Assembly (NCBI GenBank): GCA_030550095.1
Contig: JAUQQA010000001.1
Location: 124,001-188,000, forward strand
DNA length: 64,000 nucleotides
Direction: 5' to 3'
DNA from: Chloroflexota bacterium
GTDB taxonomy: Bacteria > Chloroflexota > Anaerolineae > J036 > Brachytrichaceae
Within the stretch, counting starts at the first letter, position 1; each line of letters begins with the position of its first letter. The notes below the pieces were generated by a model that saw nothing but the letters and a program-made list of their open reading frames with translations, was not told the origin of the DNA and did no database searches. Positions 22,666-28,039 of the stretch are shown piece by piece. A program made the translations under genes and the position numbers.

Positions 22666-22693
22666 TTGACAACTTTCCAAAGCCGTGAATAAT
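22666..22693 (+). promoter_or_regulatory. puf operon promoter (TTGACA - 16 nt - AATAAT)
   Basis: A perfect -35 TTGACA (22666-22671) is separated by 16 nt from AATAAT (22688-22693), a 5/6 match to the -10 consensus. TAATTA at 22690-22695 with 18-nt spacing is an alternative. The start of pufB is 80 nt further on, leaving a leader of about 70 nt. No TGT-N12-ACA (PpsR/CrtJ-type) site was found by eye. Confidence 0.7.
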
Positions 22694-22773: not shown

Positions 22774-22941
22774 ATGAACGACAAGGTCCCAGAGCGCTGG
22801 CGGCCCATCTTCACCAACGAAGAGTGGATCCAGCACCAGCTCGTCGTGGCAGCCCTGTGGATGTTCAACATCCTGGCGGGCATCGTCCACATCATCCTGT
22901 TCCTGTACAAGCCCTGGATTGACCTGACCCCCGGGCGGTGA
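22774..22941 (+). CDS. pufB: Light-harvesting complex beta subunit
   Basis: A 55-aa core antenna polypeptide with one membrane helix (about 22-46). His39 in the helix, followed by the aromatic exit motif YKPWID, is the expected bacteriochlorophyll ligand. A second His (21) sits at the N-terminal membrane boundary, as in Chloroflexus B808-866 beta. The N-terminal VPERWRPIF-N--W pattern also matches Chloroflexus beta. A very strong AAGGAGGTG site precedes the ATG. It is the first gene of the puf operon and is followed 24 nt later by pufA, in the beta-alpha order of other puf operons. Confidence 0.93.
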   Translation: MNDKVPERWRPIFTNEEWIQHQLVVAALWMFNILAGIVHIILFLYKPWIDLTPGR

Positions 22942-22965: not shown

Positions 22966-23094
22966 ATGCGAGACCCTAAGTTCATCGACTTCAAGACAGC
23001 GCTTGCGCTGTATGTCACCGCGATGGTGCTGACGGCGCTGTTGCTGCACTTCGTGGTGTACAGCTCGAGCTGGAACGACTTCTGGCTCAAGTGA
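22966..23094 (+). CDS. pufA: Light-harvesting complex alpha subunit
   Basis: A 42-aa single-helix antenna polypeptide. His28 in LLLHFVVYSSS is the bacteriochlorophyll ligand, and the LLxHFxVxSS pattern matches Chloroflexus B808-866 alpha. Its upstream context (AAGGAGGTAAGACCG) is almost a copy of the pufB ribosome-binding region. This implies equal high translation of the two peptides, which assemble 1:1. A large hairpin follows the stop codon and separates the antenna genes from pufL. Confidence 0.92.
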   Translation: MRDPKFIDFKTALALYVTAMVLTALLLHFVVYSSSWNDFWLK

Positions 23095-23359: not shown

Positions 23360-24223
23360 ATGCTGTCATTTGAAGCAAAGTATCGGCGTGAAGCCCTCGA
23401 AGTGCCCCCCATTCCGTGGCTCGGGATGGGCATTTTCCGCTTCTGGATTGGGCGCTTCTACGTGGGCTTCTGGGGATTGGTGGCGCTTTTCTTCGGGCTG
23501 ATCGGCGCCTCAGTGTGGTTCTGGCGGGTGTTGTTCGTGGACCCATTGAACTCCAATAACCCGCTGCTGAACTTCATCCGCGGTCAGATCAAGCCCCCGC
23601 CCCCAGAAGTCGGTCTCTCGATCCCGCTTGACGGGGAGAAGGGGTTGTGGTGGATCGTGGTGGTTTTCTGCGCGACGATCACCTTCTTCGCCTGGATGAT
23701 GCGCCAGGTGGAGATCTCGCGCATGCTGAAGATGGGCTACCAGGTGCCCATTGCTTACGCGGCGGTGTTCTCCTCGTGGATCACGATCCAGATTCTGCGC
23801 CCGGTGCTGCTTGGGCACTGGTCGGAGGGCTTCCCGCTCGGCGTGATGGCGCACTTGGATTGGCTTTCGGCGTTCGGTTACCGCTACTACAACTTCTTCT
23901 TCAATCCTTTCCACGCGCTTGGCATCACCTTCCTGTTCGGGAGCGCGTTCGTGCTTTCGCTGCACGGCGCCACCATCCTCAGCGCCTCAGGCAAGAAAGC
24001 CGAAGGGGTCACCGAGGAGAACGTCAACCAGTTCTATTGGGACTTTCTAGGTTACTCCATCGGTGAGGTGGGCATCCACCGCCTGGCGCTGTGGACGGCA
24101 GTGCTTGCGGTGCTCGTGAGCAATCTGTGCTTCGTGCTCTCTGGGACGGTGGTGCAAGACTGGAACGCCTTCTGGGACTTCTGGAACAAGTTGCCGTTCT
24201 GGAGCGGGTTCGGCTTTAACTAA
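23360..24223 (+). CDS. pufL: Photosynthetic reaction centre L subunit
   Basis: A 287-aa membrane protein with five helices. Key ligands align with the purple-bacterial L chain: His165 (accessory BChl, in AHLDW), His185 (special pair, NPFH), His202 and His240 (non-haem iron; SLHGATIL and GIHRLALW). A separate pufL, with pufM starting 16 nt later, differs from the fused pufLM of Roseiflexus. A GAGGTGA site precedes the ATG. The 265-nt leader from pufA holds the large hairpin plus a smaller inverted repeat (GGACTGA 23245-23251 / TCAGTCC 23289-23295). Confidence 0.96.
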   Translation: MLSFEAKYRREALEVPPIPWLGMGIFRFWIGRFYVGFWGLVALFFGLIGASVWFWRVLFVDPLNSNNPLLNFIRGQIKPPPPEVGLSIPLDGEKGLWWIVVVFCATITFFAWMMRQVEISRMLKMGYQVPIAYAAVFSSWITIQILRPVLLGHWSEGFPLGVMAHLDWLSAFGYRYYNFFFNPFHALGITFLFGSAFVLSLHGATILSASGKKAEGVTEENVNQFYWDFLGYSIGEVGIHRLALWTAVLAVLVSNLCFVLSGTVVQDWNAFWDFWNKLPFWSGFGFN

Positions 24224-24238: not shown

Positions 24239-25126
24239 ATGACGACCGAAGTCTATCGCGAGTCCTTCGAGCGGCGCACCAAGACGGTGCGGTACCTGCG
24301 CTTCCTTGAAGGGCTGGCTGACACGCAGGTAGGACCGATTTTCCTCGGCATGTGGGGCACGGTGGCGCTGTTCTCCTACCTGCTGAGCGCGTTCATCACA
24401 GCGGTTGGGTTCGGCGAGCAAGTGGGTTGGAACCCGATCCGCTTCGTACGTGAGTTGCCTGTGCTCACGCTTTACCCGCCGCCGCCTTCGTATGGCTTGC
24501 AGCTTGCCCCACTGCAAGAGGGCGGCTACTGGCAGATCGCCACGTTCTTCCTCACTGTGTCGTTAATCGCGTGGACGTTCCGCGCGTGGACGCGCGCCGT
24601 GGCCAACGGCTTGCGCCCCACGGTGGCGATCGCCTTCACAGCAGCGCTGTTCCTCTACGCGGCGATCTACATCATCCACCCGATCTCGGTGAACTCGTGG
24701 AACGAGGCGCCAGGACACGGGTTGGCGGCACTCCTGTTGTGGACCAACCACTTCAGCGTGAAGTACGGCAACTTCTACTACAACCCGTTCCACATGGTCT
24801 CGATCTTCGGGTTGCTGGGCAGCGCGGTGATCCTGGCGATGCACGGCGCGACGATCCTGGCGACGTTGGCGTATAACGCCCACAAGGAAATTGACGAGAT
24901 CGAGAAAAGCGACGAGGGCACCCATCGCGCACAGCTCTTCTGGCGCTGGGTGATGGGCTTCAACGCCACGGCGCACTCGATCCACGTGTGGGCGCTGGGC
25001 TTCGCTTCCCTCACGGCAATCGCCGGCGCTATCGGCGTGATCGCCAGCGGCTGGCTCGAGCCAAACTGGTACCTGTGGGGCTGCCGCGCAGGGATTACGC
25101 CCGGCATCCAAGCCGCTTGTCCGTAA
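24239..25126 (+). CDS. pufM: Photosynthetic reaction centre M subunit
   Basis: A 295-aa five-helix subunit. His185 (special pair, NPFH), His202 and His249 (iron) are present. At the accessory-BChl position the purple His (M182) is replaced by Leu165 (LLLWTN), so a bacteriopheophytin should occupy this site, as in Chloroflexus (three BChl, three BPheo). The purple TyrM210 equivalent is Leu193. No puhA-like H subunit is seen, which fits Chloroflexota reaction centres. The ribosome-binding site AGAGGAGGTG is strong. Confidence 0.96.
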   Translation: MTTEVYRESFERRTKTVRYLRFLEGLADTQVGPIFLGMWGTVALFSYLLSAFITAVGFGEQVGWNPIRFVRELPVLTLYPPPPSYGLQLAPLQEGGYWQIATFFLTVSLIAWTFRAWTRAVANGLRPTVAIAFTAALFLYAAIYIIHPISVNSWNEAPGHGLAALLLWTNHFSVKYGNFYYNPFHMVSIFGLLGSAVILAMHGATILATLAYNAHKEIDEIEKSDEGTHRAQLFWRWVMGFNATAHSIHVWALGFASLTAIAGAIGVIASGWLEPNWYLWGCRAGITPGIQAACP

Positions 25127-25147: not shown

Positions 25148-26368
25148 ATGACCGTCCACGAAGGCGCTCCTCCAGGAGCAGTCGCAAAGTACGACGAGCG
25201 ACAGCGCGAAATTCTGCGCGGCGAGCTGGTGGGGCTGGTGGCGTTCACCATCTTGGCGCTGGGCGGCGTGATCGCGCTCTCGATGGCATTCGCAGGGACG
25301 CGCGAGATGATGGGTTATCGCGCCGAGCACACCTACAACTACGCCGGCGTGCAAACGGTGAACTTCCAGCAGTACATGGAGCGCATCGGTCGCCCCATCG
25401 CACAGCCAAGCGCTGAGGCGCTGCAGGCGTACTCAGAATGGGTCGCTAAGAACCCGCGCACGGTGAACGTTCAGGTGCTCAACAAATACCTGGGCGAGAA
25501 GTACAACGACACAAACAACGTCTTCGCCTACATGAGCGCCTACTTCACGCCCGGCGTGGGGCAGAGCTGCGAGTATTGCCACAACCTGCAGAACTTCGCC
25601 GACTACTCAAAGCCGCAAAAGACTGTCGCCAAGGCAATGCTGATCATGCAGTTCGAGCTGCAGACCAAGTGGATCGAGAACATCCCACGGCCTGAGGGGC
25701 AGCCGCTGTACCAGATCAAGTGCTACACCTGCCACTACGGTCAGGCGAAGTTCTGGAACCAGGAGCTGAAGGCAAGCAACCCTGAGCTGTTCGGCGTGGC
25801 TGGTGGCGGCAACCCAACGCCGTATGACATGAAGAACAACGGCATCACGCTGAACGGCAAGGTGCCGAGCAGCTACGAAGTGGTGGACGACCGCTACCTG
25901 GCGACGCGACCCGACGCCGAGGGCAATTACAACTTCTACCAAGTTACTGCGAATAAGGACACGCCGGCTGGCTTGGTGGATACCTACCGCAACCAGTACG
26001 CCATGTATCACCAGAACACGGCGCTGGGCGTAGGGTGCGACTTCTGCCACTACGGCGGTTACTTCAAGAGCTACGTGACCGCCGACGGCGTGTTCAAGTG
26101 GCCCAAGGCGCAAGCGCGGCACATGCAAGCCATGATGTTGGACATTGCGCTCAACTGGTTCCCGCAAATGCCGAACGTCAACGACGTGACGCAGGCGCAG
26201 AACTACTACGCGCAGCCCAACTGCTACATGTGCCACCGCGGCTACGTGGTGCCACCAGGCGCAGCGGAGTTCCCCGAGACGCCAGTGAAGGTGGCCGATC
26301 CAGAGATCAAGCCACTGGTCGAACTCCCCTTGCCGAAGCCCATCCTGCCAACCAGCGCAGGTCGGTGA
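25148..26368 (+). CDS. pufC: Tetraheme reaction-centre cytochrome c subunit
   Basis: A 406-aa protein that re-reduces the photo-oxidised special pair from the periplasmic side. Four CxxCH haem sites are present at residues 141-145, 192-196, 297-301 and 359-363. It has one N-terminal uncleaved membrane helix (about 26-50) and no lipobox, so it is anchored by the helix rather than by lipid. It lies 21 nt after pufM with an AGGAGGTGAC site. The C-terminus is Pro-rich. Length and haem number match Chloroflexota PufC. Confidence 0.95.
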   Translation: MTVHEGAPPGAVAKYDERQREILRGELVGLVAFTILALGGVIALSMAFAGTREMMGYRAEHTYNYAGVQTVNFQQYMERIGRPIAQPSAEALQAYSEWVAKNPRTVNVQVLNKYLGEKYNDTNNVFAYMSAYFTPGVGQSCEYCHNLQNFADYSKPQKTVAKAMLIMQFELQTKWIENIPRPEGQPLYQIKCYTCHYGQAKFWNQELKASNPELFGVAGGGNPTPYDMKNNGITLNGKVPSSYEVVDDRYLATRPDAEGNYNFYQVTANKDTPAGLVDTYRNQYAMYHQNTALGVGCDFCHYGGYFKSYVTADGVFKWPKAQARHMQAMMLDIALNWFPQMPNVNDVTQAQNYYAQPNCYMCHRGYVVPPGAAEFPETPVKVADPEIKPLVELPLPKPILPTSAGR

Positions 26369-26381
26369 AGTCGCCTGATGC

Positions 26382-26419
26382 GTGCAGCGCCCCTGCTTAA
26401 GCAGCAGCGGGCGCTGCAC
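26382..26419 (+). other. Intercistronic hairpin between pufC and the BCH2-type gene
   Basis: GTGCAGCGCCC (26382-26392) pairs perfectly with GGGCGCTGCAC (26409-26419) over 11 bp. An inner CTGC-TTAA-GCAG tetraloop stem (26393-26404) sits on top with a 4-nt bulge. The sequence after it (TCTAAAATG) is not a T-run. It begins 13 nt after the pufC stop, suggesting 3' protection of the pufLMC message or partial attenuation. Confidence 0.72.
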
Positions 26420-26421
26420 TC

Positions 26422-26427
26422 TAAAAT
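26422..26427 (+). promoter_or_regulatory. -10-like TAAAAT just before the BCH2-type gene
   Basis: TAAAAT ends 7 nt before the ATG at 26435, the same geometry seen at other Shine-Dalgarno-less genes in this window. If functional it would give a leaderless transcript starting at or next to the start codon, independent of the puf promoter. No -35 is visible. Confidence 0.4.
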
Positions 26428-26434
26428 GCGCGCC

Positions 26435-27763
26435 ATGCAGCTCAACAAGCGCTTGCTCCGTTTAAGCCTCTTCCAGTTGGGATTGGGGTTCAGCGTGGTC
26501 GTTTTCAACGGCGCCTTCAACCGCGTCCTCATCGCCGAAGAGCAGATCCCCGCCGGCGTAGTGGGATGGTTGCTGAGCCTTGGGCTGTTCGTAGCGCCCA
26601 TCCGCGCGCTGATGGGCTTCATGTCCGACCGCGAGAAGCGCACCTTCGGCTACCGACGCTTCCCCTACGCCTGGTTCGGCACTGTCTTCATCTTCCTCGC
26701 ACTTTCTTCAGCGCCGTTCTCACTGCTGCTGCTCAGCAAAGCCTCGGAGTTGAACAGCCACGTGCCCTTCCCCGTCGGCTTCGGCATGTCCACGTTCATC
26801 TTTTTGCTCTACGCGGTGGGCTTGCACATCGGGCAGACGGGCTACTTAGCTATGGTCACCGACCTCACACCGCAGCGCGAACGCAGCCGCGCGATGGCCT
26901 ACCTGTGGGTGACCTTCATCATTGGGCAAATCATTAGCGCGTTCATCGTGAGCGCGTGGCTCGAGGACTACCATCCCTCAAAGCTGGTGCAGGTGATGCA
27001 AACCGGCGCAGTGGTGTTCTTCGTGCTCGCAGTGGCTGCGATCTGGGGCCAGGAGAAGCCCATCGAGCTTGAGGACGACATAGACGACTTCTCGAGCAAG
27101 GTCTGGACGCTGTTTGAAGATCGCCGCATGCGCTGGTTCTTCGCCACACTGTTCATCGGCACGTTGGGGCTCACGGCGCAGGACGTGCTGCTGGAGCCGT
27201 ATGGCGGGCAAGTGCTCGGCATGGCGGTAAGCGAAACCGCGCGCCTCACCGCAGTTTGGGGCATCGGCATGCTCACCGCTATGTTGATCGCATGGCGCGT
27301 GATCCCGAGGTTGGAATCGCCGCTGCCTGTGACGCTCGTGGCAAGCCTTCTGGGCATGGCGGGCTTTGGGTTGATCAGCAGCGCCAGCCTCTCCAAGCAG
27401 GTGTTGCCCTTCGTGGCGGGCACCTTCACGGTGGGTGTCGCCAGCGGTTTGTTCTTGATCTCCACGCTCTCGTGGGTGGTGGGTCTCGCTAATGTGAAAA
27501 CGGCAGGCTTGTATGTGGGCATGTGGGGATTGGTTCAAACCACGGCTTCAGGCGTAGGCGCCCTCGGGGGCAGCAACCTGCGCGACTTGGTGATCCGCAC
27601 AACAGGGAACATCGCGCAGAGTTACACCACTGTGTATGTGGCAGAGATGGCGCTGTTGGCGGTAACCCTGTTGTTGTTCGTCTTCGTGCCGCGCGAGTTG
27701 CTTGCTGCGCGCACAAAAGGGCGGTCGGCATTCGCCGGTCTGACGGAGATCCCTGGCAACTGA
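26435..27763 (+). CDS. PucC/LhaA/BCH2-family major-facilitator membrane protein
   Basis: A 442-aa protein with about 12 membrane helices. The opening RLSLFQLGLGF, the GVVG-LLSLGLFVAPIRALMGFMSD segment and FGYRR-PYAWFG identify the BCH2/PucC branch of the MFS. Members (PucC, LhaA, Bch2) help assemble antenna complexes or deliver bacteriochlorophyll. It follows pufC in the same direction, behind a hairpin. The start is ambiguous between ATG 26426 and ATG 26435; the latter fits the TAAAAT plus 7-nt leaderless geometry. Its position in the puf operon supports a role in LH-RC assembly. Confidence 0.88.
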   Translation: MQLNKRLLRLSLFQLGLGFSVVVFNGAFNRVLIAEEQIPAGVVGWLLSLGLFVAPIRALMGFMSDREKRTFGYRRFPYAWFGTVFIFLALSSAPFSLLLLSKASELNSHVPFPVGFGMSTFIFLLYAVGLHIGQTGYLAMVTDLTPQRERSRAMAYLWVTFIIGQIISAFIVSAWLEDYHPSKLVQVMQTGAVVFFVLAVAAIWGQEKPIELEDDIDDFSSKVWTLFEDRRMRWFFATLFIGTLGLTAQDVLLEPYGGQVLGMAVSETARLTAVWGIGMLTAMLIAWRVIPRLESPLPVTLVASLLGMAGFGLISSASLSKQVLPFVAGTFTVGVASGLFLISTLSWVVGLANVKTAGLYVGMWGLVQTTASGVGALGGSNLRDLVIRTTGNIAQSYTTVYVAEMALLAVTLLLFVFVPRELLAARTKGRSAFAGLTEIPGN

Positions 27764-27792
27764 TTCGCTTTTGAAAAGAGAGGTGAAGTCAC

Positions 27793-27960
27793 ATGCCGCT
27801 CATCCCAACGCTTGAGTCGCTGTTGTGCATCGTGTTGCTGTTGATGGGCTCTGTGGGGCTTTTCGTGCTGTTCGCGTTCACAGATAACGACGCCGTCGCC
27901 CAGAGCAAACTCCCTCAACACGCAACCGAGAAGCGAGACGAGCAGCCTAAGTCGGCGTAG
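27793..27960 (+). CDS. 55-aa single-helix membrane protein at the end of the puf operon
   Basis: A small ORF: ATG with an AGAGGTGAAG ribosome-binding site, 55 codons, TAG. One strongly hydrophobic segment (about 10-29) is followed by a charged C-terminal tail (KRDEQPK). The helix lacks His, so it should not bind bacteriochlorophyll like pufA/pufB. It begins 29 nt after the BCH2-type gene and is followed by a strong terminator, so it is the last gene of the puf transcript. No family recognised. A PufX-like or extra RC-LH helix is an attractive but unproven idea. Confidence 0.72.
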   Translation: MPLIPTLESLLCIVLLLMGSVGLFVLFAFTDNDAVAQSKLPQHATEKRDEQPKSA

Positions 27961-28003
27961 CCACGCCACGCCCAGGCTGCTTACATGAAATCACGTGCGG
28001 GCA

Positions 28004-28039
28004 CGCGCGCTGCTCTTTTCAGTGCAGCGCGCGTTTTTT
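28004..28039 (+). terminator. Rho-independent terminator of the puf operon
   Basis: CGCGCGCTGC (28004-28013) and GCAGCGCGCG (28024-28033) form a perfect 10-bp GC-rich stem with a 10-nt loop, followed directly by six T (28034-28039). It lies 44 nt after the 55-aa ORF and defines the operon end. Confidence 0.9.

Follow-up and report, generated by a model that had tools for sequence, protein, structure and literature searches.

A 55-residue single-helix protein encoded at the end of a Chloroflexota puf operon as a probable counterpart of reaction-centre subunit Z/protein h and chain N

The last gene of the puf operon

Behind the genes for the antenna, the reaction centre (RC) and its cytochrome, the puf operon in the window (the whole stretch of 64,000 nucleotides that was analysed) carries a small open reading frame (ORF), here called X55, and the question raised by this locus is what the product of X55 may be and where in the photosynthetic apparatus it would act. 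The genes are arranged in the order pufB-pufA-pufL-pufM-pufC-(PucC-family gene)-X55, which makes X55 the final gene of the operon, with 29 bp between the stop of the PucC-family (MFS) gene and the X55 start. The features of the locus are as follows:

22666-22693, + strand: promoter-like site TTGACA-16-AATAAT, 5' of pufB (11 of 12 positions match)
22774-22941, + strand: pufB, LH beta
22966-23094, + strand: pufA, LH alpha
23360-24223, + strand: pufL
24239-25126, + strand: pufM
25148-26368, + strand: pufC, RC-bound cytochrome, with an N-terminal membrane helix at residues about 29-49
26378-27763, + strand: PucC-family (LhaA-clade) membrane protein directly 5' of X55, a likely antenna/RC assembly factor
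27780-27785, + strand: ribosome-binding site of X55, GAGGTG, 7 nt before the ATG
27793-27960, + strand: X55, 55 residues, product MPLIPTLESLLCIVLLLMGSVGLFVLFAFTDNDAVAQSKLPQHATEKRDEQPKSA, candidate counterpart of RC-LH subunit Z/protein h/chain N
27817-27876, + strand: predicted membrane-spanning segment of X55, residues about 9-28
27826-27894, + strand: shared pattern C12-x9-G22-x7-T30-D31-x2-A34 of X55, in register with Z and N
28003-28039, + strand: terminator-like hairpin (28003-28034, 11 bp, G+C-rich) and T6 run ending the operon

The count of promoter-like sites across the region is not above that of shuffled sequences, and the same applies to the total count of a simple terminator scan, which overlooked the hairpin at 28003-28034 because of its loop limit; when folded, this hairpin reaches -24 kcal/mol. 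As 150 ORFs of at least 40 residues overlap the examined 16 kb, the size of X55 is uninformative on its own, and its conservation was therefore tested. The first-pass annotation had described X55 as an unrecognised single-helix protein of 55 residues in the last puf gene, a description borne out by the ORF itself, the GAGGTG site, the position in the operon and the conservation reported below. Indeed, X55 has one membrane helix that holds no His, followed by a charged tail, as had been proposed, and an AF2 model of X55 alone consists only of a helix spanning residues 6-37. No Pfam model and no NCBIfam model matched X55. A lipoprotein reading of its LLC sequence was discarded, as the hydrophobic stretch comes after the Cys and not before it, so that there is no lipobox.

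Conservation and distribution

Within the class, 17 of 396 genomes carry pufM, and their puf regions were compared. By tblastn, X55 lies directly 3' of the PucC-family gene in the puf operons of 13 relatives, and one further genome (G275) also carries it, on another contig, for a total of 14 relatives; carriers include Thermoflexales SKYG100, Ca. Roseilinea sp. NK_OTU-006 and Ca. Roseilinea mizusawaensis AA3_104. The lack of a conserved ORF at this place in relatives had been named beforehand as the finding that would speak against the gene, and the search instead found the ORF kept at the same place in the 14 relatives. In particular, in the window's family X55 is present in 15 of the 16 pufM-positive members and in none of the 12 pufM-negative ones (0/12), the single pufM-positive exception (G197) being a genome whose contig stops just past the PucC gene.

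At the protein level, identity among relatives ranges from 42 to 91%, and 15 positions are invariant in 14 sequences. X55 and its nearest relative are separated by 25 synonymous and 8 non-synonymous differences, and omega lies between 0.00 and 0.33 in unsaturated pairs. On account of its distribution, its invariant positions and these omega values, X55 is a real protein gene under strong purifying selection that is tied to phototrophy.

Profile-level kinship with subunit Z/protein h and chain N

When the X55 profile was searched against the whole PDB, only two chains fell under E 10, both of them weak matches, and one of the two is 8ydm_N, the "hypothetical protein chain N" of a Chloroflexus aurantiacus reaction-centre entry. 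In Roseiflexus (G542), the ORF that corresponds to the published subunit Z/protein h encodes 63 residues in the same register as X55; Ser12 and Asn58 of this protein agree with the modelled range of Z (PMC10516601), and an alignment built from the ORF matches 8hju_Z at E 6e-32. In parallel, the N alignment matches 8ydm_N at E 7e-39, and a protein of G500 is identical to this chain. Profile-profile comparison (hhalign) gave scores of 32.4 for X55 with Z (P 3.4e-6), 28.5 for X55 with N (P 1.9e-5), 23.5 for Z with N, and 35.0 for X55 with Z and N combined (P 7.6e-7). Decoy families, which are membrane helices taken from the same genomes, reached maxima of 14.9 (43 against X55), 15.0 (52 against Z), 18.3 (52 against N) and 15.3 (15 against Z), and column-permuted X55 profiles reached 20.8 against Z and 24.2 against N (200 permutations each). 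Moreover, a Z profile run over two whole Roseilinea-type (g3) genomes had X55 as its top match in both. The direct sequence matches are each weak alone (E 1.8, 0.01 and 0.16, the last two being those of the Z profile), and the PDB matches of the combined alignment are in-sample and were excluded from the evidence. X55 is thus akin to Z and N at the level of profiles.

The resemblance extends beyond the scores. Z, which is protein h of the Roseiflexus castenholzii RC-LH (PDB 8hju_Z, 8iug; WP_041331144.1), is likewise a single helix of about 50-63 residues, is likewise encoded with photosynthesis genes in an organism whose RC has no H subunit, and shares with X55 the pattern C-x9-G-x7-T-[DN]-x2-A in register and a polar, charged C-terminal tail. 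It differs from X55 in that identity is about 24-26%, in its tail (LRLDP versus LPxH...EKRDEQ in X55) and in the place of its gene, which lies in a bchF-C-X-DUF169-Z-bchY-bchZ cluster whereas X55 lies in puf. Chain N has in common with X55 the register of the Cys, the small residue and the T-[DN] with its A, together with an IGP-x-T/IPST start, while its gene stands between DUF169 and bchI and its tail, ARRTRTGRKP, is strongly basic. Neither Z nor N matched a Pfam model or reached an NCBIfam cut-off. Since the profiles match Z and N, and since protein h has been reported at the place of the H helix, X55 is very probably the Anaerolineae (Ca. Roseilinea/Thermoflexales) ortholog of Z/protein h/chain N, and would as such be an RC-M-bound helix that stabilises RC-LH. 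The earlier suggestion that X55 recalls the extra single-helix polypeptides in RC-LH structures of filamentous phototrophs has thus held, its counterparts being Roseiflexus Z/protein h and Chloroflexus chain N.

The first-pass annotation had also likened X55 to PufX and PufW and given it a possible part in shaping the LH ring or a quinone channel. X55 would then be a helix of the PufX/PufW or TMx kind that opens a gap in the ring, a reading which agrees with a single helix free of an internal His ligand and encoded by the last puf gene, PufX genes likewise lying within puf operons, and which we consider quite unlikely. PufX, PufY and PufW, as well as Roseiflexus X (TMx) and Y (protein I), are small single RC-LH helices like X55, but the site proposed for them is a different one. 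Among the PDB matches of the X55 profile, up to E 10, there is no PufX, Roseiflexus X or Roseiflexus Y chain; X and Y, whose G542 sequences were verified by comparison with the PDB, score 9.2 and 9.0 with X55, at the level of decoys and against the far higher scores of Z and N, and Y was not found in the X55 family at single-sequence sensitivity. Kinship with PufX, PufW, TMx or protein I was accordingly rejected for lack of profile similarity. Nor is the ring-gap or quinone-channel role supported, as the matched protein sits at the interface of RC-M and LH-alpha, in the position of the H helix (PMC10432797, PMC10516601). In Roseiflexus, the ring gap and quinone channel are formed by the cytochrome helix c-TM and subunit X/TMx, and not by Z (PMC10516601), and the PufC of the window has an N-terminal helix like the gap-making one (PMC10516601).

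Convergence is the other reading that bears on the profile matches, and a very unlikely one: X55 would be an unrelated small membrane helix that came to look like Z and N, with a function in the operon that would probably still be linked to RC-LH. X55 is indeed short and hydrophobic, with weak pairwise E-values, yet the in-register match lies clearly above both the TM-helix decoys and all 400 permuted profiles, and the matches come from both sides, from the X55 profile to 8ydm_N and from the Z profile to X55. Convergence is also opposed by the distributions of the three proteins, which are complementary, with one such protein per phototroph family: chain N is found in 23 of 23 Chloroflexaceae phototrophs, and Z in every Roseiflexaceae phototroph sampled across the phylum (7 of 7) and, in addition, in the Anaerolineae genome G194.

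The stretch common to X55, Z and N is a single helix, about 33 residues long, in which a Cys is followed 18 residues later by T-[DN] and then by Ala (in one case Ser), and in which a small residue between the Cys and the T-[DN] is mostly conserved; the C-terminal tails can be aligned across the three families only for the first residues past the helix. The motif count of 45 out of 45 is partly circular, as Z and N members had been fetched with a related pattern. Because of these pattern-pulled members, and because one sequence (L151) has no small residue in the middle and another (L153) is not resolved, only the Cys, the T-[DN] and the following Ala/Ser are taken as reliable. The Cys, which is encoded at 27826-27828 of the window and lies towards the outer end of the helix, is conserved in every X55, Z and N sequence that was read, L153 not being resolved; to our knowledge, no role has been described for it.

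Two further matches stand apart from this family. X55-profile matches in Roseiflexus at E about 0.02 (G542:C1:4523266 and G693:C9:27087) are not Z, as the frame lies in a conserved region and resembles a shadow frame within a larger gene. A short frame in a Chloroflexaceae genome (L086:1501-1569 in G479; LVHFLATDRNGLDAGKMPAHPGE) resembles the X55 tail at E 0.01, probably by chance.

The upstream gene and the lhaA-puhA parallel

The gene 5' of X55 had been read as BCH2-type, an assignment that the tree overturns: it places the gene in the LhaA clade (support 99/98), apart from the bchP-linked BCD transporters. Of 10 plasmid records, 9 have the puhA-adjacent paralog as its best match. In purple bacteria the order bchFNBHLM-lhaA-puhABC is conserved (PMC3176799), and in the plasmid-borne purple/AAP cluster records that were read (6 of 6) puhA, which encodes RC-H, lies directly 3' of the LhaA gene. 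As the gene upstream of X55 belongs to the LhaA clade and puhA follows lhaA in purple bacteria, X55 fills the puhA slot behind lhaA, and this is a feature of position only.

The comparison with PuhA has two sides. The transmembrane helix of PuhA in purple bacteria occupies the position reported for protein h, whereas PuhA has a large cytoplasmic domain and X55, with only 55 residues, has none. Aligned with the PuhA helix by hhalign, X55, Z and N scored 8.5-12.6, with decoys reaching up to 23.2; the PuhA query served as bait only, and the aligned puhA sequences came from annotated records. There is thus no detectable homology, and X55 is therefore not called a member of PuhA. A search of 19 genomes for the PRCH domain (PF03967), run without a positive control genome, gave no match. 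A common origin of the X55 helix and the PuhA membrane helix from one ancestral LhaA-linked RC subunit, to which purple bacteria would later have added the cytoplasmic H domain, is unlikely; it is compatible with the lhaA neighbourhood that both have and with the site on the RC that is reported to be common to them, and sequence comparison lends it no support. A parallel to such a gain of a domain is offered by G194, in which a helix-hairpin-helix domain is attached to a Z helix. The least probable of the alternatives is that X55 is a small accessory subunit of the LhaA-type assembly factor that is not kept in mature RC-LH, for although X55 lies closely behind the LhaA-clade gene in every readable locus, its relatives Z and N are present in purified RC-LH structures and their genes stand in bch clusters and not beside a PucC gene.

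Deep-branching members of the family carry a second PucC-family gene 5' of bchF (L217:4185-5630, L044:7636-8928, L043:4779-6056), which forms its own clade far from LhaA.

Proposed role and significance

From the Roseiflexus structures we infer the location of X55 in the complex, its orientation and a role in assembly or stabilisation. X55 would cross the membrane as one helix with the N-terminus out and the C-terminus in, and would lie against the exterior of RC-M and the adjoining LH-alpha helices, at the site that the H-subunit transmembrane helix takes in purple bacteria. In organisms without H, it may support the stability and the assembly of the RC as well as the way the RC fits into the LH ring, and its gene, the last of puf, adjoins that of an LhaA-type assembly factor. 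This role is suggested by the site of protein h, by the association of LhaA with RCs and by the need for H in RC assembly. Indeed, one study of Roseiflexus assigned protein h to the site of the H-subunit helix and argued that it explains the missing puhA (PMC10432797), and another located Z between RC-M and LH-alpha11 (PMC10516601), the two studies disagreeing on the exact overlay of Z/h with the H helix. An association of LhaA with RCs is known from Rba. sphaeroides (PMC4949548), and according to puhA-deletion work as cited in PMC10432797, H is essential for the assembly of functional RCs. For RC-LH of Anaerolineae, the literature search turned up neither proteomics nor a structure.

A stand-in for the H helix appears common to all four families of Chloroflexota type-II phototrophs that were sampled, and such a small protein would then be a regular part of the type-II RC across these families and no peculiarity of Roseiflexus. 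Chloroflexota reaction centres rebuilt from metagenomes have so far been described with a pufL-pufM operon (PMC12650329), and the X55-type helix is possibly a subunit missing from them. New here are the connection of X55, Z and N, three unannotated proteins, with one another, their presence in four families, and the parallel between lhaA-X55 and lhaA-puhA, all of which are unreported in the papers found by a search that did not cover the 8ydm paper. In particular, the mirrored gene order makes the origin of the H subunit testable.

Neighbourhoods in the bch clusters

The genes of Z and N occupy a common place, bchF-bchC-bchX(-DUF169)-Z/N, in Roseiflexaceae, in Chloroflexus and in G194. This chromosomal place, which X55 does not share, is a feature of Z and N and is not required for membership. 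The bchC-bchX-bchY region of the X55 family holds no Z/N-type helix and no DUF169, and in deep members the neighbourhood of X55 itself extends toward bchF (L217) or bchF-bchI-bchD (L043, L044).

Some minor observations concern the same clusters. The DUF169 (PF02596) gene between bchX and Z/N in Chloroflexus and Roseiflexus (L218:6156-6986, L060:9426-10169) is a candidate bacteriochlorophyll or RC factor. Beside bchX, G194 (family f35) encodes a protein of 174 residues (L046:18680-19201) in which the Z-type helix is followed by a fused C-terminal HHH_5/DUF4332 domain. In the genome of the window, the 0.9-kb space between bchX and bchY (L227:2662-3540) has a hydrophobic ORF where Roseiflexus has DUF169 and Z, and bchX is present twice in the nearest relative (G041), the copies lying on two contigs (L225, L231).
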